Shown here: positions 6,021-19,294 of the stretch, one piece after another
Position numbering within the stretch: the first letter of the stretch is position 1
How the letters are laid out: each line of letters starts with the position of its first letter
Assembly: GCA_017448975.1 (NCBI GenBank)
Contig: JAFSKN010000048.1
Location: forward strand, 1-39,359
Direction: 5' to 3'
Length of the DNA: 39,359 bases
From: Clostridia bacterium
GTDB taxonomy: Bacteria > Bacillota > Clostridia > Christensenellales > Aristaeellaceae
The notes under the pieces: generated by a model
The model's database searches: none
What the model was told of the DNA's origin: nothing
Seen by the model: only the letters and a program-made list of their open reading frames with translations
Position numbers and translations under genes: made by a program

Positions 6021-7763
6021 ATGCGCAATCAAATCAAATGGCTGTGGGAGAACATGGACGCTCCCTACCGCCGCCGCCACATCATCGCCCTGTGCCTCAG
6101 CGTGTTTACCTGCATGCTGCTGCTGGTGAACCCGGCCCTGTCCCAGCGTCTCATAGACGACGTGATCGTGGCCCAGAATCCCGAGCCCCTGCTTTCCATC
6201 CTGGCCATCATGCTGGTGGTGAAGCTGGGCCGGGAAGGGCTTCGGTACCTCATGGTGATCTTTCTGGAATCCGACAGCCAGAACGTGATCTTTAATCTGC
6301 GCCGCCGCCTGTTTGAAAAGCTGCAGTTCAACGACATGCGCTTTTTTGACGATCACCGCACCGGCGATCTCATGACCCGCATGAGCGCCGATTTGGACTG
6401 GTGCCGCCATTTCCTGGCATACATCGATTACCGCATCATCGACGCGGCCTGCACCTTCCTGTTCGCCACCGTGTACCTGTTCTTTGTGAACTGGAAGCTG
6501 ACGCTGCTGCTGATCGTCATCACGCCCATCCTGCTTCTGATCACCAAATTCTTTTCCAAGCACGTGCGGCCCCGGTTCGTGTTCATGCGGGAAAAACTCA
6601 GCGAAATGAACACCGCCGCTCAGGAAAACATCGCGGGCAACCGGGTGGTAAAGGCCTTCGCCCGGGAGGAATACGAAAAGCAGCGGTTTGAGGAAAAGAG
6701 CCGGGCCTTCATGAACAGCCACCTGCGCATCAACAAGCTGTGGCTCACCTTCTTCCCCATGATCGAGCTGCTGGTGAACGCCATTCAATTGGTGACGGTG
6801 TTCGTGGGCGGCCTGTTCATCATTTCCGGCGAGCTGACCCCCGGCCAGCTGGCGATTTTCACGGGCCTGAGCTGGGCGGTTTCCAACCCCATGCGGGAGC
6901 TTGGCAACCTGATCAACGATTTACAGCGCTTTTCCACCTCCGCCGCCAAGGTGATGGAGCTGCACTATGGCAAGCCCGAGATCGTGGACGCCCCCGACGC
7001 CGTGGAGCACGGCCGCATGGAGGGAAAGATCGAGTTCCGCCATGTTTCCTTTAAGATCGACACCAAGGATATTTTGACGGATGTGAGCTTTTCCGTTGAG
7101 CCGGGCCAGACGGTGGCCGTTATGGGCCCCACCGGCGGCGGGAAAACCACCCTGATCCATCTGCTGTCCCGCTTCTATGACGCCACGGAGGGCGAAGTGC
7201 TGGTGGACGATTGCGACGTGAAGCAATGGAAGCTCCAGCAGCTGCGCGGCGGCATCGGCACTGCCACCCAGGACGTGTTCCTGTTTTCCGATACGGTGGA
7301 AGGCAATATCGCCTTCGGCAATCAGGAATTGACCCTGGACGAAGTGAAGGATTTCGCCCGCCGGGCGGACGCCGCCGAATTTGTGGAGCATCTGCCAGAA
7401 GGGTACGACACCATCATCGGCGAGCGCGGCGTGGGCCTCTCCGGCGGCCAAAGGCAGCGCATCGCCCTGGCCCGTGCCTTGGCCGTCAAGCCCAGCATCC
7501 TCATCATGGACGATACTACCTCCGCCGTGGACAGCGAAACGGAGCAGTATATCCAGAACCAGCTGCGCAATCTGCCCTTCCCGTGCACCAAGTTCATCAT
7601 CGCCCAGCGCATTTCTTCCATGCGGGACGCCGACCTGATCCTGGTGGTGCAGAACGGCAGGATCGCCGAGCAGGGCACCCACAAAGAGCTGCTGGAAAAA
7701 CGGGGCTATTACTGGCAGACCTACTGCCTGCAATACGGCATCCCCATGGAGGAGGCGGTATAA
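6021..7763 (+). CDS. ABC exporter half-transporter with degenerate ATPase site
   Basis: At 580 residues this is a full-length ABC half-exporter: a six-helix domain (about 20-310) followed by a nucleotide-binding domain. Walker A is GPTGGGKTT and the signature is LSGGQRQR. Walker B is ILIMDDTTSAVD, with Asp where the catalytic Glu is expected, and the H-loop is AQRISS with Gln for His. These changes mark the non-catalytic partner of heterodimeric exporters such as BmrCD or TM287/288. The partner gene begins one base after the stop. A short hairpin (5990-6006) and GGAGAG precede the ATG. Such pairs export drugs, lipids or peptides; the substrate is unknown. Confidence 0.93.
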   Translation: MRNQIKWLWENMDAPYRRRHIIALCLSVFTCMLLLVNPALSQRLIDDVIVAQNPEPLLSILAIMLVVKLGREGLRYLMVIFLESDSQNVIFNLRRRLFEKLQFNDMRFFDDHRTGDLMTRMSADLDWCRHFLAYIDYRIIDAACTFLFATVYLFFVNWKLTLLLIVITPILLLITKFFSKHVRPRFVFMREKLSEMNTAAQENIAGNRVVKAFAREEYEKQRFEEKSRAFMNSHLRINKLWLTFFPMIELLVNAIQLVTVFVGGLFIISGELTPGQLAIFTGLSWAVSNPMRELGNLINDLQRFSTSAAKVMELHYGKPEIVDAPDAVEHGRMEGKIEFRHVSFKIDTKDILTDVSFSVEPGQTVAVMGPTGGGKTTLIHLLSRFYDATEGEVLVDDCDVKQWKLQQLRGGIGTATQDVFLFSDTVEGNIAFGNQELTLDEVKDFARRADAAEFVEHLPEGYDTIIGERGVGLSGGQRQRIALARALAVKPSILIMDDTTSAVDSETEQYIQNQLRNLPFPCTKFIIAQRISSMRDADLILVVQNGRIAEQGTHKELLEKRGYYWQTYCLQYGIPMEEAV

Positions 7764-7764
7764 G

Positions 7765-9564
7765 ATGGCGCGGAATAAATTCGACGTGGACGAGCGCTTG
7801 GAATCCCCCTTTCAATGGAAGCATCTGAAACGGGCGGGCCGGTATATCGCAAAACACAAATACAAGATGCTGCTGGCGCTTTTGCTCAGCGCCCTGTCCA
7901 GCGTCGCCACCCTGTATATCCCCAAGATCACCCAATGGGTGCTGGACGAGGCCGTGCCCAACAAGGACGCCGCCATGATCGGGCGGATGGCCCTTCTGTT
8001 CGTGGGCGTAATCGCGCTGAGCATCGTGTTCACCGTCATTCGCTCCCGCATGATGGCCCACGTGAGCCAGGAGATCATTTACGACATCCGTGCCGACCTG
8101 TTCGCCCACCTGCAAAAGCTGCCCTTCAGCTACTATGACAGCCGGCCGGCGGGCAAAATTCTGGTGCGGGTGATCAACTACGTCAACTCCGTATCGGATA
8201 TCCTGTCCAACGGCATCATCAATATGATCATCGACGTGATCAGTCTGGCGTTCATTGTGGTGTTCATGTACTCCACCGACGCCACATTGGCTACGGTGAT
8301 CGTGTCGGGTCTTCCCATTTTCGTCGCCATTATTTTCTTCATCAAGCCCCGGCAGCGGAAAGCCTGGCAGAACCAGAGCAACAAAAACAGCAACTACAAC
8401 GCTTATTTGGCCGAATCCATCGACGGCGTGCGGGTGAGCCAGTTCTTTGACCGGCAGGCGGTCAATATTTCCATCATGGAAAAGCTGGCCGCCGCCTGCC
8501 GACAGGCATGGCTGCGGGCGGTGAAGATCAGCAACACGGTATGGCTGTCCAGCGAAACCATGACACAATTGGTGCTCACCTTCCTGTACATCGCGGGCGT
8601 TTACTGGATGGGCGGCGGCAGCATGGTGTCCTTTGGCGTGATCCTCGCCATGGGCCAGTACGTCAGCCGCTTCTGGCAGCCCATCACCAACCTGGCAAAC
8701 ATCTACAATTCCTTCGTCAACAACATCGCCTATTTGGAGCGCATTTTTGAAACCATGGATGAGCCGGTGGTGGTGGACGACGCGCCCGGCGCGGAAACCC
8801 TGCCCGAAATCACCGGGGAAGTGGATTTTCAGGATGTGACCTTCGCCTACGAGGAAGGCACCAACGTGCTGGAGCACGTGAATCTGCACGTAAAAGCCGG
8901 GGAAAGCATCGCCCTGGTGGGCCCCACCGGCGCCGGCAAAAGCACCGTCATCAATCTGCTGTGCCGGTTCTATAATCTGAACGGCGGCAGAATTTTGCTC
9001 CACGACAAGGCGGGCAAGACCCACGATATCAGCCAGGTCACGCTTCATTCCCTGCGCTCCCAACTGGGCATCATGCTCCAGGACAGCTTCATTTTCTCCG
9101 GCACGCTCATGGACAACATCCGCTACGGGCGCTTGGACGCCACGGACAATGAAGTGAAGGAAGCGGCCCGGCGGGTGCGGGCGGACGAGCTGATCCGCAA
9201 AATGCCCATGGGCTATCAGACCGAGATCAAGGAGCGGGGCAACAACCTGAGCCAGGGCGAAAAGCAGTTGGTCGCCTTCGCCCGTACCCTGCTTTCCGAT
9301 CCCGCTATTCTGATTTTGGACGAAGCCACCTCCTCCATCGACACCCAGACGGAAAAGCTTTTGCAGGAGGGCATCCGGGAAATGCTCAAGGGCCGCACCA
9401 GCATCATCGTGGCCCACCGCTTAAGCACCATCAAAAACTGCGACCGCATCCTGTACATCGGCAACAAGGGCATCGCCGAAATGGGCAGCCATGAAGAACT
9501 GATGCGGAAGCGCGGGCTGTATTATCAGCTGTACACCGCCCAGACGGGGAATGAAGCCGCCTGA
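7765..9564 (+). CDS. ABC exporter half-transporter, catalytic partner
   Basis: This is the 599-residue second half of the heterodimer, one base downstream of its partner. It has six transmembrane helices (about 30-330) and an ATPase domain with Walker A GPTGAGKST, Walker B ILILDEATSSID (catalytic Glu present) and H-loop AHRLST. Its signature is degenerate, NLSQGEKQL instead of LSGGQ. The catalytic Glu and His therefore pair with the intact LSGGQ of the first gene, and the degenerate signature sits over the degenerate site. This is exactly the asymmetric arrangement of known heterodimeric exporters. Confidence 0.95.
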   Translation: MARNKFDVDERLESPFQWKHLKRAGRYIAKHKYKMLLALLLSALSSVATLYIPKITQWVLDEAVPNKDAAMIGRMALLFVGVIALSIVFTVIRSRMMAHVSQEIIYDIRADLFAHLQKLPFSYYDSRPAGKILVRVINYVNSVSDILSNGIINMIIDVISLAFIVVFMYSTDATLATVIVSGLPIFVAIIFFIKPRQRKAWQNQSNKNSNYNAYLAESIDGVRVSQFFDRQAVNISIMEKLAAACRQAWLRAVKISNTVWLSSETMTQLVLTFLYIAGVYWMGGGSMVSFGVILAMGQYVSRFWQPITNLANIYNSFVNNIAYLERIFETMDEPVVVDDAPGAETLPEITGEVDFQDVTFAYEEGTNVLEHVNLHVKAGESIALVGPTGAGKSTVINLLCRFYNLNGGRILLHDKAGKTHDISQVTLHSLRSQLGIMLQDSFIFSGTLMDNIRYGRLDATDNEVKEAARRVRADELIRKMPMGYQTEIKERGNNLSQGEKQLVAFARTLLSDPAILILDEATSSIDTQTEKLLQEGIREMLKGRTSIIVAHRLSTIKNCDRILYIGNKGIAEMGSHEELMRKRGLYYQLYTAQTGNEAA

Positions 9565-14510: not shown

Positions 14511-14833
14511 CGTGGAGGAATATCCGGCGCACTGCAATGGATTTCTTCCCCTTCAAGCGCCTGTTCCATAAACAGGCAGAATGCCAACCGCAAGCGAACC
14601 CCCGCGGAACGCTTGTTGAGATTTGGGCGCAAACGGTAGAAGGGAGGTTGGGGGCCTTTTCGTTACTACCCGAGCGATAAGCTCCGGCGGGCCGCCAGGG
14701 GGGGACGGCTTCAAACGGAGGTGCGGCCGATTCGGCGAAAAAGCCGCATGAATTCCCTCATTGCTATCTCGGCCCAACCGGCAACGGTTGGAACTTGAAC
14801 GAAATACCCAATAATGAAAGGATGAAGAAGAAC
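14511..14833 (+). other. Long structured 5' leader of the pilin gene
   Basis: No protein-like frame is seen in this stretch. It contains perfect hairpins GCCTGTT/AACAGGC (14559-14577), CAAGCG/CGCTTG (14591-14615) and CCAACCG-GCAA-CGGTTGG (14774-14791), and a GC-rich GGCGGGCCGCC palindrome near 14687. The last hairpin ends about 25 bases before the ribosome binding site. I do not recognise a known riboswitch consensus. It may stabilise the mRNA or control translation. Confidence 0.55.
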
Positions 14834-16471
14834 ATGAAAAAGGTTCTGGCTCTGGTTCTGGCGGCTGTGATGGTCATGGCGCTGTGCGGCGTGGCGTTTG
14901 CGGCTGAAGGTGACACCGTTCTGAGCGTCACTGGTCTTGAGGCTGCTGGAAGCGTAAAGTACTACAAGATTATTGAATGGGATGAGACAGTTGGATGGAA
15001 GTGGGCAGCGCCTTATGCCTCTACTACCGGCTTTACTTCTGCTGTTCTCGCTGAAATCACTGGTACTCCTGCACACGAGGAGAACGGTCAAACAGTTGCG
15101 GCCGTCGCTGGCAAGATCACGACAGATACTGCTGATTTGATTGCTGGTGTACCCAATACCGCAATTGCGTCTCCTACTGGTACACTGGAAAACGGCACTT
15201 GGTCTGTCACTGTTAATGGGCAAGCCGCAAGGGGTTTGTACATGGTAGTTCCCACTGCTAACGCAGGATCTGATATCATCTACAATCCTGTTTTCATTGC
15301 TGCCAATCATGGCGCTGATACGAACACTATTGGTACTGATTCTACTTATGCTGCTGGCACCACCATCACTTCCATGGCTAAGAAAACCACTGAAACCGTT
15401 ACCAAGACTGCTGACAAGTATACTCATCAGGGCTTCACTGGTTTGACCTATGATGAGGGAAGCGTCACGCCTGGCGATACGATCGCATTTACTGTTGTTA
15501 CAACTCTTCCGGTTTATGCTGACAATTACACTGATCCCGTCTTCAAGATTTCTGATCAGGTTTCCACCGGTCTGAAGATCACAAAGAATACGATTACTAT
15601 TGCAGAACTTGAAGCCACTGATTGGGAGATTACTTCCTTCGATGATACTAATAAAGACGATTTTGTGGTCAGTATTAAGGCAACCAAACTGAAGGCCCTC
15701 ACTGCTCCCCTCAAAATCACTCTGACCTATTCGGCTGAAGTTACGGATGCTGCTCCCAAGACTGTCAATGAGCAGGACAATAAGGTGAAGATCAACTTCA
15801 GCAACAGCCCCGATGATACCGAAGGTCACGGTGAGAAGCGCGACAAGACCCGTCACTGGACTTTCTCCATCGATGCTAATGTTTTGGGTAATGAATCTCA
15901 TCATACCTCTGAAATCGTCAAGGTCGGCTTGAATCCCGATGGTACCGAGATGACCGAGACCCATACCTACGACAACTCGACCAAGGCTCATCCCTTGGCT
16001 GGTGCCAAGTTCCAGTTGAAGCAAGGTAACACAGTTGTCCGCGAAGTGACCACTGCGGCAGATGGTTATATCCACTTCGAAGGTCTGAATGTAGGCACTT
16101 ACACCCTTGTTGAGACTGTAGCTCCCGAAGGCTTTATCCGCGACATGAACGAACATACTGTGGTAATTGAAGCTGAAGTTGCGCATGACCTTGAGGAGAC
16201 CGACGAAGATGGTTACACCTACACGACGGATCGCCTTGTGTCCTATAGTATCACTGTCGATGGTACGAAATCCTCCTACACCTTCGATAATGGTACTAAG
16301 GTTCAGAATATTACGAATGGTGACAAAACCTCCAAGATCAATAACACCCAGGGTCTTGAACTCCCCTCCACCGGCGGCATCGGTACCACGATCTTCTACG
16401 TGACCGGTCTGCTGATGGTTCTGGGCGCTGCCGTCATCCTGGTGGCCCGCCGCCGCGCCGACGCGGAATAA
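14834..16471 (+). CDS. LPxTG-anchored backbone pilin (SpaA/isopeptide family)
   Basis: This roughly 545-residue surface protein begins MKKVLALVLAAVMVMALCGVAFA, a Sec signal peptide split here by its AAE cleavage region. AAAGGA lies about 12 bases upstream; an in-frame ATG at 14822 is too close to that site. A D2-type fimbrial domain follows (around YTDPVFKISDQVSTGLKI, about residues 230-330). Next is a SpaA/Cna-B domain (AHPLAGAKFQLKQG to ETVAPEGF), then LPSTGG, a hydrophobic helix and an RRRADAE tail for sortase anchoring. GCT/ACT-rich codons and lower GC separate it from its neighbours and suggest strong expression or transfer. No sortase gene lies in the window. Two orphan copies of its 3' end lie downstream. 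Confidence 0.9.
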   Translation: MKKVLALVLAAVMVMALCGVAFAAEGDTVLSVTGLEAAGSVKYYKIIEWDETVGWKWAAPYASTTGFTSAVLAEITGTPAHEENGQTVAAVAGKITTDTADLIAGVPNTAIASPTGTLENGTWSVTVNGQAARGLYMVVPTANAGSDIIYNPVFIAANHGADTNTIGTDSTYAAGTTITSMAKKTTETVTKTADKYTHQGFTGLTYDEGSVTPGDTIAFTVVTTLPVYADNYTDPVFKISDQVSTGLKITKNTITIAELEATDWEITSFDDTNKDDFVVSIKATKLKALTAPLKITLTYSAEVTDAAPKTVNEQDNKVKINFSNSPDDTEGHGEKRDKTRHWTFSIDANVLGNESHHTSEIVKVGLNPDGTEMTETHTYDNSTKAHPLAGAKFQLKQGNTVVREVTTAADGYIHFEGLNVGTYTLVETVAPEGFIRDMNEHTVVIEAEVAHDLEETDEDGYTYTTDRLVSYSITVDGTKSSYTFDNGTKVQNITNGDKTSKINNTQGLELPSTGGIGTTIFYVTGLLMVLGAAVILVARRRADAE

Positions 16472-16515
16472 TTCCCTGTCAACCCTGAACCATAACCCTG
16501 ACAACTGAACCCCGT

Positions 16516-16547
16516 CCCCCTGTCGCCCCGGCGATAGGGGGATTTTT
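16516..16547 (+). terminator. Terminator of the pilin gene
   Basis: CCCCCT-GTCGCC pairs with GGCGA-AGGGGG, followed by ATTTTT. The same hairpin recurs at 17339-17370, also 45 bases after a sorting-tail stop codon. Confidence 0.9.
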
Positions 16548-16687
16548 CACAAAATGGATTTGTGTTTTATCCATTTGCACATTTTCTTTCTCTTGACGTA
16601 AACTGCAAAAGAACAGACCCGATCTCGATTTACATTGTGTTGTTATAAAAAGGAATCCAATGCCGGAAAAGTCGGAGGAGAACAAAT

Positions 16688-17150
16688 ATGTCTGATACAA
16701 CCGCTATGAGTGCAGTGCAAGCAAATCAATACGATTTGCTTCTTGAATCCATCAATCAGTCGTTGCTGCATGGGCGAGAACAGATAGCTTCTGCCGTAAG
16801 CCAAACGATCCTCCGTACATATTGGGAGATTGGCAGAAATATTGTTGAGTTTGAGCAACAGGGACAGGCAAAAGCGGATTACGGTTCCGAACTGCTGAAA
16901 CAGTTGTCTCGGGATTTAACGGCACGCCATGGAACGGGGTTTAGTAAAAGCAACGTTTTTTCTATGCGGCGCATCTACTTGCTCTATCCAAAATTCCAGA
17001 CGCTGTCTGGAATTTTGACCTGGAGCCATTATGTGGAATTGCTAAAACTGGACGATCCGCTGGAGCGTTCCTTTTATGAGCATGCTTGCGTTCAGGAGCA
17101 TTGGGGCGTGCGTGAATTAAGGCGGCAAATGAATAGTATGCTGTTCCAAC
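16688..17150 (+). pseudogene. DUF1016 (YhcG-like) N-terminal fragment
   Basis: The ATG follows GGAGGAG. The frame gives about 154 residues of the DUF1016 N-terminal domain: LLESINQSLLHGREQIASAV, LRTYWEIGRNIVEFEQQG, LSRDLTARHGTGFSKSNV, LTWSHYVELL and WGVRELRRQMNSMLFQR. Complete members continue into a PDDEXK-type nuclease domain of similar size. Here the sequence switches at about 17150 to a pilin sorting tail in another frame, so the nuclease half is missing. Members are often linked to restriction or defence loci. Confidence 0.8.
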
Positions 17151-17294
17151 GTCGGAAACATAGGGACCGGTTCTGTGTATTCTCCCCCCTCCACCGGCGG
17201 CGTCGGTACCACGATCTTTTCCGTCTCCGGTCTGATGATGGTCCTCGGCGCTTCCGTCATCCTGGTGGCCCGCCGCCGCGCTGACGCGGAATAA
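17151..17294 (+). pseudogene. Orphan LPxTG-type sorting tail, copy 2
   Basis: In frame, 17151-17294 reads GNIGTGSVYSPPSTGGVGTT, then the hydrophobic helix and ARRRADAE and a stop. It is nearly identical in DNA to the 3' end of the pilin gene, including 45 bases of 3' UTR and the terminator. No start codon or signal peptide precedes it, and it is joined to the broken DUF1016 gene. PPSTG replaces LPSTG. Confidence 0.8.
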
Positions 17295-17338
17295 TCCCCC
17301 GTCACCCCTGAACCCTAATCCCAACAATTGAACTCCGT

Positions 17339-17370
17339 CCCCCTGTCGCCCCGGCGATAGGGGGATTTTT
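17339..17370 (+). terminator. Terminator copy behind the orphan sorting tail
   Basis: This has the same CCCCCT...AGGGGG hairpin and ATTTTT as at 16516-16547. Confidence 0.88.
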
Positions 17371-17390
17371 CTCTCTTCCATACAATTTGC

Positions 17391-17418
17391 TTGACATTTC
17401 CTCAAATTCGGGTATAAT
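17391..17418 (+). promoter_or_regulatory. Promoter of small RNA, copy 1
   Basis: Perfect TTGACA (17391-17396), a 16-base spacer and perfect TATAAT (17413-17418). The start should fall near 17425. Confidence 0.85.
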
Positions 17419-17453
17419 AAAAAACGAAGAGCGAACCACGCACGCGGTTGCTC
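17416..17453 (-). terminator. Minus-strand terminator of the peptide mRNA, copy 1
   Basis: Read on the minus strand, GAGCAACC and GGTTCGCTC pair (17453-17429), followed by TTCGTTTTTTATT. It would end the peptide mRNA just inside the small-RNA promoter, so the two transcripts converge and overlap. Confidence 0.75.
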
Positions 17454-17531
17454 CTCAAATTAGGACAATCGTTGTGATCTTACGACCACAGAGACAGCCG
17501 TCACTTGCCAGAGTGGCGGTTGTTCTTTTTT
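17425..17531 (+). ncRNA. Candidate antisense small RNA (type I antitoxin-like), copy 1
   Basis: A strong promoter and an intrinsic terminator define an RNA of about 105 bases. Stem 1 is GAGCGAACC/GGTTGCTC (17429-17453). Stem 2 is around TGTGATC-TTAC-GACCACA (17473-17490). The terminator is CCGTCACT-AGTGGCGG (17498-17519), followed by TTGTTCTTTTTT. The RNA is complementary to the 3' end of the minus-strand peptide gene (its last 31 bases) and to its whole 3' UTR. This is the layout of antitoxin RNAs such as RatA or SR4. No expression evidence is available. Confidence 0.7.
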
Positions 17532-17599
17532 CGCTGCGTTTCACGAATGATGATCGTCACCGTGTACTTCCAAATATGGAAAGTAAGACGCATACGCAT
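17501..17599 (-). CDS. 32-residue peptide, candidate type I toxin, copy 1
   Basis: The minus-strand ATG follows AAAGGGGGTG. The peptide starts MRMRLTFHIWKYTVTIII and ends TQRKKNNRHSGK. The first half is rich in beta-branched and aromatic residues and the tail is strongly basic. The stop codon lies inside the terminator hairpin of the plus-strand small RNA. A perfect promoter lies upstream, and the ribosome binding site is in a hairpin. The second copy keeps frame and length with few changes (Leu to Ile, Trp to Gly, Arg to Cys), which supports a real gene. I do not recognise a named family. A membrane- or nucleic-acid-active toxin is inference from gene layout. Confidence 0.7.
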   Translation of the reverse strand: MRMRLTFHIWKYTVTIIIRETQRKKNNRHSGK

Positions 17600-17618
17600 C
17601 ACCCCCTTTCGGGAGGAT
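17598..17618 (-). promoter_or_regulatory. Hairpin hiding the peptide ribosome binding site, copy 1
   Basis: On the minus strand ATCCTCCC pairs with GGGGG(T)GAT around a GAAA loop, burying the Shine-Dalgarno and the A and T of the start codon. Type I toxin mRNAs commonly mask their ribosome binding site this way. It is conserved in copy 2. Confidence 0.6.
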
Positions 17619-17674
17619 GGAGCAATCGCCTGCGCGTTTGTTGTTCACTCTTCGGCCCCTTTCGAGACATTTTT

Positions 17675-17703
17675 ATTGTATATGATATGTCGAATACTGT
17701 CAA
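17675..17703 (-). promoter_or_regulatory. Promoter of the peptide mRNA, copy 1
   Basis: On the minus strand: TTGACA (17703-17698), 17 bases, TACAAT (17680-17675). The start near 17668 leaves a leader of about 70 bases. The -35 box has no counterpart beside copy 2. Confidence 0.75.
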
Positions 17704-17761
17704 TCATTTTGTATATAAAAATGGCGGAGTTCATTTATGGAGATTTTGGGCTAATTCTCTA

Positions 17762-17812: not shown

Positions 17813-18180
17813 ATGTACAAGATACTTTTTTATAAAGATAAGAATGGAAAAGAAATTGTGCTTGAATACATGAAAACGCTGGCAGCGCAAAATACGAAAG
17901 ATGAAAAATAAAACTCCATAAAATCCAGGACTATATTAACGTTCTGTCAGCATTTGGAACACGGGCTGGCGAACCTTATGTCAAGAAAATTGATGACAAG
18001 TGTGATATCTGGGAATTAAGACCAACAAGTGACAGGATATTATTTGTAGCGTGGGTCAATAATAGTTTTGTGCTGCTTCATTCCTTCCAGAAGAAAACGC
18101 AGAAAACGCCGAAAAAGGAAATTGAACGGGCAAGAAACGAATATAAGGATTTATTAGAAAGGGGAATTGAAAATGAATAA
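17813..18180 (+). pseudogene. HigB/Gp49-like toxin, interrupted by a one-base frameshift
   Basis: The start MYKILFYKDKNGKEIVLEYM and the downstream HKIQDYINVLSAFGTRAGEP, IWELRPTSDRILFVAWVNN and FVLLHSFQKKTQKTP together make a complete RelE/HigB-type (Gp49 family) toxin of about 122 residues. They lie in two frames. At 17902-17906 the run GAAAAATAA gives a stop after residue 32, and one extra A would restore KDEKIKLHKIQ. The run of A could be a sequencing error, a true mutation or a transcript-slippage site. The second part ends at 18180 and overlaps the antitoxin ATG by eight bases. A perfect promoter and GGAAGGAGG precede it. Confidence 0.82.
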
Positions 18181-18463
18181 AAGCGCGATCGGCAGCAGTT
18201 GGGACGAAGTGCAGAAAAAGTTATTCTCCTCGGAAGAAATCGCGGAAAGTAATCTGCGTGTTCAGCTCATAGGCGAATTGATAAAGGCACGACAAGAACA
18301 AGGCATTTCTCAAAAGAAACTGGAGGAATTAAGCGGTGTAAAACAACCTATTATTGCAAGAATGGAAAAAGGATATACAAGCCCACAAATTGATACGCTC
18401 TTAAAAGTGCTTGCTCCACTCGGAAAAACAATCGCTATTGTACCAATTGACACACGATCGTAA
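18173..18463 (+). CDS. HigA-like XRE-family antitoxin
   Basis: This 96-residue protein has a helix-turn-helix of the Xre type in about residues 30-85 (IGELIKARQEQGISQKKLEEL, KQPIIARMEKGY, IDTLLKVLAPLGKTIAIVP). ATG 18173 overlaps the toxin frame; TTG 18167 is also in frame. In HigBA pairs the antitoxin binds the toxin and represses the shared promoter, here probably at 17762-17790. It remains intact while the toxin frame is broken. Confidence 0.88.
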   Translation: MNKSAIGSSWDEVQKKLFSSEEIAESNLRVQLIGELIKARQEQGISQKKLEELSGVKQPIIARMEKGYTSPQIDTLLKVLAPLGKTIAIVPIDTRS

Positions 18464-18570: not shown

Positions 18571-18696
18571 CAGTCCGGCGGCATCGGTACCACCATTTTT
18601 TCCGTCTCCGGCCTGCTGATGGCTCCGGGCGCTTCCGTCATCCTGGTGGCCAGCTGCCGCGCTGACGCGGAATCATCCCATAACCTCATGGCTTGA
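18571..18696 (+). pseudogene. Orphan sorting tail, copy 3 (decayed)
   Basis: The frame reads QSGGIGTTIFSVSGLLMAPG, then ASVILVASCRADAE. It matches the pilin 3' end, but the LP(S)T part is lost, RRR has become SCR, and the original stop TAA is now TCA, so the frame runs on to 18696. It has no start. Confidence 0.75.
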
Positions 18697-18710
18697 ATGA
18701 GCCATAACCC

Positions 18711-18749
18711 AAATCCCCGTGCCTGCTTCCCGCTTGCACGGGGATTTTG
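18711..18749 (+). terminator. Terminator behind sorting tail copy 3
   Basis: AAATCCCCGTGC (18711-18722) and GCACGGGGATTT (18736-18747) form a perfect stem, followed by TTG. Its sequence differs from the terminator of copies 1 and 2. Confidence 0.75.
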
Positions 18750-18770
18750 TAAAAGCCCTTATAAACGCTC

Positions 18771-18798
18771 TTGACATTTCCCCAAATTCGGCTATAAT
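18771..18798 (+). promoter_or_regulatory. Promoter of small RNA, copy 2
   Basis: Perfect TTGACA (18771-18776), 16 bases, TATAAT (18793-18798). Confidence 0.85.
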
Positions 18799-18804
18799 AA
18801 AAAA

Positions 18805-18910
18805 CGAAGAGCGAACCACGCACGCGGTTGCTCCTCAAACCTGACTTGCTAAATGTGGCTTACGGCCACACCCAACCGTCACTTGCCAGAGTGGCGGTTG
18901 TTCTTTTTTC
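18805..18910 (+). ncRNA. Candidate antisense small RNA, copy 2
   Basis: The layout matches copy 1: stem 1 unchanged, terminator CCGTCACT-AGTGGCGG (18876-18897) and T-run unchanged. Stem 2 is re-sequenced to TGTGGC/GCCACA (18854-18870) but still pairs. The promoter is intact, so this copy could be made even if the facing peptide gene is silent. Confidence 0.68.
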
Positions 18911-18977
18911 GCTGCGTTTCACAGATGATGATTGTCACTGTGTACTTTCCAATATGGAATGTAATACGCATACGCAT
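18879..18977 (-). CDS. 32-residue peptide, candidate type I toxin, copy 2
   Basis: The peptide starts MRMRITFHIGKYTVTIII and ends with the same TQRKKNNRHSGK as copy 1. AAAGGGGGTG and the masking hairpin are conserved. The upstream promoter is not: the region matching the -10 reads AACAAT and no -35 is seen at the right distance. The gene is probably weakly expressed or silent. Confidence 0.62.
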   Translation of the reverse strand: MRMRITFHIGKYTVTIIICETQRKKNNRHSGK

Positions 18978-19126
18978 CACCCCCTTTCGGGAGGATGGAG
19001 CAATCGCCTGCGCGTTTGTTGTTCGCTCTTCGGCCTCTTTCAAGGTAATTCTATTGTTGTTGTCTGGTCGGCGGCTATACGGGATGGTGGCTGACGCAAA
19101 TCAGGCATTTCCGTCAGATCACAATG

Positions 19127-19294
19127 CTATCCCCAACGCTCAAATAATGAAGGTTCCTCATACCGCGCGAACAAATCCGTCTGCCCCATATCGAACAGGA
19201 ATTTATGCTCCGCCGTTTCCACAAACAGGCTGAGGCCGTGTTCCGTGGGAAGGCCGCGGGCGGAGGTATTCTCAATCAAAGCTGTGATTTTCAT
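19127..19294 (-). pseudogene. MBL-fold metallohydrolase, N-terminal fragment
   Basis: The start is the ATG two bases after the stop of the ArsR-NifX gene. [20 protein letters not shown] and [25 protein letters not shown] are the opening of the MBL-fold family related to dihydropterin-phosphate synthases. The metal-binding HxHxDH motif should come next, but after ARYEE the frame ends. The active site is therefore missing. In other Firmicutes this gene commonly neighbours NifX-like proteins, so an operon has lost its 3' part here, next to the duplicated module. Confidence 0.8.

Follow-up and report, generated by a model that had tools for sequence, protein, structure and literature searches.

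The window, by which we mean the whole 39,359-nucleotide stretch of clostridial DNA analysed here, probably carries a type I toxin-antitoxin module, as judged from sequence, and the family to which this module belongs occurs in none of the libraries or papers searched. On comparison of homologues, the short peptide and the small antisense RNA (sRNA) encoded opposite to it are a real, conserved module in gut and rumen Clostridia. Two hallmarks of type I systems can be read from the DNA: a conserved peptide with its own predicted transcript (N/S ratio 0.107; mRNA promoter in 97 of 148 elements), and an antisense RNA with its own predicted promoter and terminator, which is complementary to the mRNA. 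The label “toxin-antitoxin” is one that we infer.

Anatomy of the two copies

Two predicted transcription units converge at the locus, each driven by a strong sigma-70-type promoter (Table 1). Both promoters lie where an earlier note on this DNA, which proposed a candidate type I system, had placed them. By number, promoter-like sites matching at least 9 of 12 consensus positions do not exceed chance (4 found, 3.3 expected from shuffles), and the two promoters are credible because they are conserved in homologues, not because of the site count. The predicted mRNA terminator is a hairpin of -19.0 kcal/mol followed by U6; it was claimed in the earlier note and emerges from folding, though it is absent from a simple terminator scan. 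The 32-codon minus-strand frame described there is likewise present from the upstream in-frame ATG 17599 (VMRMRLTFHIWKYTVTIIIRETQRKKNNRHSGK*); the start is more likely ATG 17593, which gives 30 codons and is better spaced behind the ribosome site. Folding also predicts the masking of that site, and the sRNA with its own terminator overlaps the 3' third of the mRNA, including the last 31 coding bases with the stop codon. Each terminator had been said to lie at the 5' side of the other transcript. This holds for the mRNA terminator, which sits over the 5' end of the sRNA, whereas the sRNA terminator covers the 3' end of the coding region and not the 5' side of the mRNA.

Table 1. Features of the two element copies, in positions of the window
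Feature	Position	Strand	Basis
Antisense sRNA promoter TTGACA-16-TATAAT	17391-17418	+	12/12 consensus match
Predicted antisense sRNA, ~107 nt (putative antitoxin)	17425-17531	+	Promoter and terminator; fold -41.1 kcal/mol, z -4.0
sRNA hypervariable centre (putative cognate-specificity region)	17460-17492	+	Identity across element pairs
sRNA intrinsic terminator	17493-17531	+	Terminator scan; overlaps the peptide's last codons
Peptide mRNA promoter TTGACA-17-TACAAT	17703-17675	-	11/12 consensus match
Predicted peptide mRNA, ~250 nt	17668-17419	-	Promoter to terminator; fold -103.9 kcal/mol, z -6.7
mRNA 5'-terminal hairpin	17655-17668	-	Fold; same-place hairpins of differing sequence in homologues (by eye)
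5' arm of long-distance 5'-3' helix	17619-17654	-	Fold and covariation
3' arm of long-distance helix (mRNA terminator; complement of sRNA 5' head)	17425-17456	-	Fold and covariation
Predicted hairpin masking the ribosome binding site, CCUCCC-GAAA-GGGGG	17602-17615	-	Folds, RNAalifold
30-codon peptide MRLTFHIWKYTVTIIIRETQRKKNNRHSGK (putative toxin) and stop	17501-17593	-	Frame and coding constraint
Copy 2: antisense sRNA promoter, intact	18771-18798	+	12/12
Copy 2: predicted antisense sRNA	18805-18909	+	Repeat comparison, promoter scan
Copy 2: peptide frame MRITFHIGKYTVTIIICETQRKKNNRHSGK, open	18879-18971	-	Translation

A second copy of the element, which the earlier note did not include, occupies positions 18770-19057, 1.38 kb from the first, and is 88% identical to it. 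The two copies share the sRNA head completely (identity 1.0) and the sRNA centre at an identity of 0.56. In 18700-19250 no minus-strand promoter matching at least 9 of 12 positions was found; the second copy has lost its mRNA promoter, and the window holds one complete copy and one without a peptide promoter. Only these two copies were found in the genome itself, which is 85% complete.

The 3' end of an LPXTG pilin gene (14795-16471), together with the stretch that follows it (16404-16548), is repeated at 17227-17371 and 18608-18752 with 90% and 61% identity, each time slightly upstream of an element copy. A frame with a DUF1016 N-terminal domain (16688-17284) runs into the first of these repeats, and therefore the gene appears cut short. 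Between the two element copies (17813-18463), a Gp49/HigB-like toxin frame, apparently split near 17905, adjoins an open HTH antitoxin-like gene; together they make up a type II toxin-antitoxin system whose toxin appears to be broken.

Homologues, peptide constraint and linkage to the sRNA

Relatives of the element were found by DNA-level search in 11 of 100 related genomes and by protein-level search at E <=1 in 26 of 200 family genomes, 15 of them at E <=0.001 (own genome included in each count, the last being our own count). Within the genus the element is patchy and multi-copy, being present in 9 of 29 genomes (own included); genomes carry several copies, and tandem as well as inverted arrays occur. 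When 28 elements are aligned, most of the rows listed have in common the two promoters, the leader, the ribosome-site hairpin, the peptide and the terminator, but not the flanks. A DNA pattern made from the overlap of the last codons with the sRNA terminator retrieved 10 stretches in IMG/VR and at least 120 in named genome contigs. Most of the 80 labels listed are Oscillospiraceae, Ruminococcaceae, Lachnospiraceae, Clostridiales or Clostridia, and the matches listed include Evtepia gabavorous, Pseudoflavonifractor capillosus, and Blautia and Dysosmobacter metagenome-assembled genomes (MAGs), many host names being MAG labels. The element of Vescimonas fastidiosa, the sole match among plasmid-collection records, has two 12/12 promoters and lies unannotated between pnp and a regulator gene.

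In evenly drawn genomes, profile matches at E <=0.01 were obtained in 10 of 396 genomes across the order (own family included), and profile matches in 4 of 391 across the class (own genome included); outside the own taxonomic family they were weak or partial only. For the exact C-terminal/terminator pattern the counts, with the own genome included in both, were 2 among 291 genomes of the class and 1 among 249 of the phylum. The large named set therefore stems from few families and not from the whole class.

Individual elements vary in their setting and structure. On a Lachnospiraceae MAG contig (L099, 398-1769) four tandem copies follow each other about 450 bases apart, the first without a peptide frame, and on an IMG/VR contig (L093) the element (8669-8933) and a phage integrase gene (7200-8402) are some 270 bases apart, among other phage-like genes. 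Four elements (L005, L018, L021) contain an extra leader segment of about 110-125 bases between the arm of the long helix and the ribosome site.

Conservation of the peptide frame in homologues had been set beforehand as a test of the earlier proposal, and the frame is conserved. Across 569 close pairs, codon positions 1, 2 and 3 differ 1233, 658 and 4003 times, respectively, and the N/S ratio of 0.107 (last 8 codons excluded) indicates that the peptide is under selection. This comparison used 117 aligned frames from 120 toxin-bearing elements, three without a clear start being left out. The peptides comprise 25-40 residues, the commonest of which read T[FL]H[IV]..[YF]T[VI]T[IV].[VI]K; the best-kept positions before the tail are T (116 of 117), H (114), T (105) and T (107). 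The ending RHS[AG]K is partly imposed by the search pattern, and members found through their start also end in RHSAQ, RHSDK, RRSAK or RHPGR.

Positive charge (median net +5) and low hydrophobicity (median GRAVY -0.22) mark the 108 distinct peptides; a 17-residue mean hydrophobicity of at least 1.6 is reached in a single case, and the window peptide has a GRAVY of -0.98 and a 17-residue value of 0.61. When the tail is left out and no pattern is presupposed, 104 of the 108 have a best beta-type moment larger than their best helix-type moment, compared with 48% of shuffled peptides. Low hydrophobicity and beta-type moments set the peptide apart from the membrane-type type I toxins described in PMC8309996, whose hydrophobic alpha-helical transmembrane segment is not a feature of these 108 peptides.

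The earlier note had recognised no known toxin in the peptide, and the library searches agree: at E up to 10 the window peptide hit 0 families in Pfam, NCBIfam, PHROGs and PADLOC, and two or three further query peptides gave the same result. A profile search of the PDB returned one match (E 0.31) and phage records one match (E 8; none for a relative), both taken as chance. Rfam yielded nothing in the window at the gathering threshold; at E up to 10, five sub-threshold matches fell in 17380-17720, the best at E 0.12.

To compare the two promoters across the family, we used 148 elements with a distinct core, namely 31 from further genomes, 6 from IMG/VR and 111 from named contigs; elements with too little flank were left out. 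The antisense promoter (at least 10/12) is present in 137 of the 148, and 131 of these fall inside three adjacent 15-base bins, whereas the mRNA promoter reaches the same score in 97. Shuffles gave 2.0% (antisense) and 1.4% (mRNA), the opposite strands 25/148 and 19/148. Since this set had been gathered largely through the sRNA terminator, the test was repeated from the toxin start with a pattern of ribosome site and first codons, which matched 32 of 300 family genomes (own included) and gave 0 hits when reversed. It recovered 58 starts, 56 of them with enough flank (left out were L218 and the second window copy as cut in L223). An antisense promoter accompanies 55 of these 56 starts, an mRNA promoter 47 and an RHSxK-type ending 40. 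The proposal that the sRNA runs antisense to the 3' side of the peptide is thus borne out by elements found without using the sRNA; the exception (L224) has an mRNA promoter and lacks the sRNA head and promoter.

Decay of the element is one-sided. Of 28 elements first scored as peptide-less, two (L091, L168) looked intact on reading; among the remaining 26 remnants the sRNA promoter persists in 20 and the mRNA promoter in 5, compared with 117 and 92 of 122 peptide-bearing elements. The remnant count is biased towards sRNA retention, because its pattern spans the sRNA terminator; the reverse test is free of this bias. Clearly cut or shifted frames (L226, L235, L237, L242, L268) retain the antisense promoter in five of five cases, and all but L226 keep the mRNA promoter too, so decay also hits the frame itself. 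One-sided loss as seen in these sequences fits a toxin-antitoxin pair, since it would be expected if the peptide harms cells that lack the sRNA.

Sequence change in the sRNA centre is near saturation: over 119 element pairs the identity of this part is 0.53, against 0.84 for the coding region and 0.45 for a reversed-sequence control. From this variability a cognate-only action would follow, as PMC6563280 reports for most Clostridioides difficile type I pairs. A YUNR recognition loop in the centre was unenriched (28 of 85 elements, 23.3 expected; 91 tested, 6 without a hairpin).

A predicted long-distance helix in the peptide mRNA

The predicted mRNA of the window folds with an energy that 0 of 200 shuffles attain, and in this fold the leader is paired with its own terminator. 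Taken together, the 75-nucleotide leader and the last 45 nucleotides reach -48.2 kcal/mol, compared with -23.3 and -19.0 when folded singly. The pairing recurs in the 91 elements that possess the peptide and both promoters: at least 12 pairs between the first 70 and the last 50 nucleotides are predicted in 90 of them, and the 5'-3' duplex has a z below -3 in 84. A 22-row alignment keeps the 29-pair helix in 93.5% of its cells, and RNAalifold recovers most of the helix unprompted. Nine pairs have changed on both sides, against a shuffled mean of 3.4 (0 of 500 shuffles as high), and this covariation is specific to the register; pair types do not exceed shuffles (25 against 24.3; 208 of 500), and a single position of the helix is unpaired in 13 of the 22 rows. 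Median identity between 3' ends is only 0.59. In 90 of 91 elements the leader pairs better with the 3' end of its own mRNA than, on average, with those of other elements, and in 38 the own end is the best of all; that of the window ranks 7th of 91.

The 3' arm of the helix is complementary to the 5' head of the sRNA as well, and hence the head and the mRNA leader are almost identical in sequence. According to these predicted pairings, the sRNA head and the mRNA leader can both bind the mRNA 3' end. When the window mRNA is shortened, the predicted folds show a partly re-paired leader after removal of 25 to 40 nucleotides and a largely free one after removal of 45 or 60. The hairpin over the ribosome site stays closed throughout the range of 25-60 nucleotides, and trimming alone may therefore not switch translation on. 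An A-rich leader stretch (AACAACAAACG), which partly forms a bulge of the modelled helix, could be a ribosome standby site, a mechanism mentioned for tisB/IstR1 in PMC6562991.

Proposed mechanism, alternatives and known systems

The features described suggest a circuit in which the full-length mRNA would be inert: the 5'-3' helix would close the molecule and tie up the A-rich, standby-like leader, while the local hairpin would mask the ribosome site. Trimming of the 3' end by some tens of nucleotides would free the leader and lead to translation. As long as the sRNA is made, it would pair with the 3' third of the mRNA and direct RNase III cleavage before active mRNA accumulates, and its 5' head, a near copy of the mRNA leader, would compete for the same 3' end. 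Upon loss of the locus, or of the short-lived RNA, the peptide would be made and harm the cell, perhaps as an amphipathic cationic pair of beta-strands acting at the membrane. The hypervariable centre would prevent cross-reaction between copies in one genome. In this full form, as a so far undescribed family of type I systems in Clostridia of the gut and rumen, with a cationic amphipathic, beta-hairpin-like toxin, a leader-copy antitoxin competing for the 3' end and a copy-specific hypervariable centre, we hold the reading tentatively, at a little below an even chance.

Three other readings have to be weighed. The same RNA circuit might silence a small peptide without toxic action, such as one with a role at the membrane or in stress. 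The modest hydrophobicity of the peptides, including that of the window, speaks for this reading, which we nevertheless consider unlikely, because peptide genes without an antisense promoter are nearly absent (1 of 56), and because a toxin would be expected to show one-sided decay, patchy multi-copy spread (in 9 of 29 genomes of the genus) and double locking. A selfish miniature repeat, with promoters at its inverted ends and an incidental peptide frame, would account for the presence of multiple copies in one genome, their tandem or inverted arrangement, unalignable flanks (0.46 identity, compared with 0.44 for reversed sequence) and TTGACA...TGTCAA at the edges. Yet the N/S ratio of 0.107 implies selection on the peptide, and this coding signature largely refutes an incidental frame; moreover, direct repeats at the edges, as left by target-site duplication, do not go beyond chance (4-mers at 7 of 78 flank pairs, 5.4 expected), which renders such an origin highly improbable.

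Even less probable is a reading in which the plus-strand RNA, acting in trans as a regulator, is the product that matters and the peptide strand is secondary. In its favour, the sRNA promoter is better kept than the mRNA promoter (137 against 97 of 148) and survives without the peptide in 20 of 26 remnants; against it stand the strong protein-level constraint on the peptide and the hypervariability of the sRNA centre (0.53, coding 0.84), unlike a trans regulator with fixed targets. The type I toxin-antitoxin reading is accordingly preferred to all three.

Among known systems, aapA/IsoA of Helicobacter pylori comes close in design. As described in PMC6733600, it combines a short mRNA (225 nucleotides for aapA3), a 5'-3' helix and a masked ribosome site with a cis-encoded antisense RNA and several chromosomal copies, and of aapA3 only the mRNA form without the last 35 nucleotides is efficiently translated. 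A 5'-3' long-distance interaction is likewise indicated here, by structure prediction and covariation. In aapA3, however, it is the long helix that occludes the ribosome site, a task that a local hairpin is predicted to perform here, and AapA1 has an alpha-helical transmembrane segment (PMC8309996), whereas the present peptides match no Pfam or NCBIfam model. The hok/Sok system of plasmid R1 also has a stable full-length mRNA that requires 3'-end processing for translation (PMC6733600), but Sok works via a leader peptide in the 5' region (PMC6562991), and no peptide match was found here.

The Bacillus subtilis pairs bsrG/SR4, txpA/RatA, bsrE/SR5 and yonT/SR6 share the pairing of RNAs at the 3' ends, over 100-140 bp in their case; according to PMC6562991, their toxins have 30-59 residues, the txpA, bsrG and bsrE mRNAs 255-294 nucleotides, and RNase III cleaves the toxin/antitoxin RNA duplex. 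The peptides described here differ in matching no Pfam or NCBIfam model, and similarity to the TxpA/BsrG family was not seen in Rfam, where BsrG scored 10.8 bits (gathering score 55; E 2.7). The earlier note had compared the layout with txpA/RatA and bsrG/SR4; the overlap agrees with this, but the comparison omitted the predicted 5'-to-3' lock of the mRNA, as in aapA/IsoA. The module would join the locked-mRNA design of aapA/IsoA with the convergent 3' overlap of bsrG/SR4, and by sequence it is a member of neither. In C. difficile, the convergent, overlapping modules CD2517.1-RCd8, CD2907.1-RCd9 and CD0956.2-RCd10, two of which lie in prophages, are type I systems of Clostridia as well (PMC6563280); their toxins have 50-53 residues and a predicted transmembrane domain in that account, and they show no family match to the present peptides.

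No description of the peptide or module was recognised in the literature searched; most subscription papers lie outside that scope, and absence from print is not established. The peptide may figure, with no function assigned, in catalogues of small proteins. A 2019 review names C. difficile as the only source of experimentally validated type I modules in Clostridia and states that homology searches found few elsewhere (PMC6563280). The module occurs in gut and rumen Clostridia, many of them uncultured and some of them named, and would extend the locked-mRNA design to bacteria only distantly related to Helicobacter and E. coli. If the toxin is indeed non-helical, it would depart from the usual view that small type I toxins are membrane helices. 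The family also provides a ready set of natural variants for testing.
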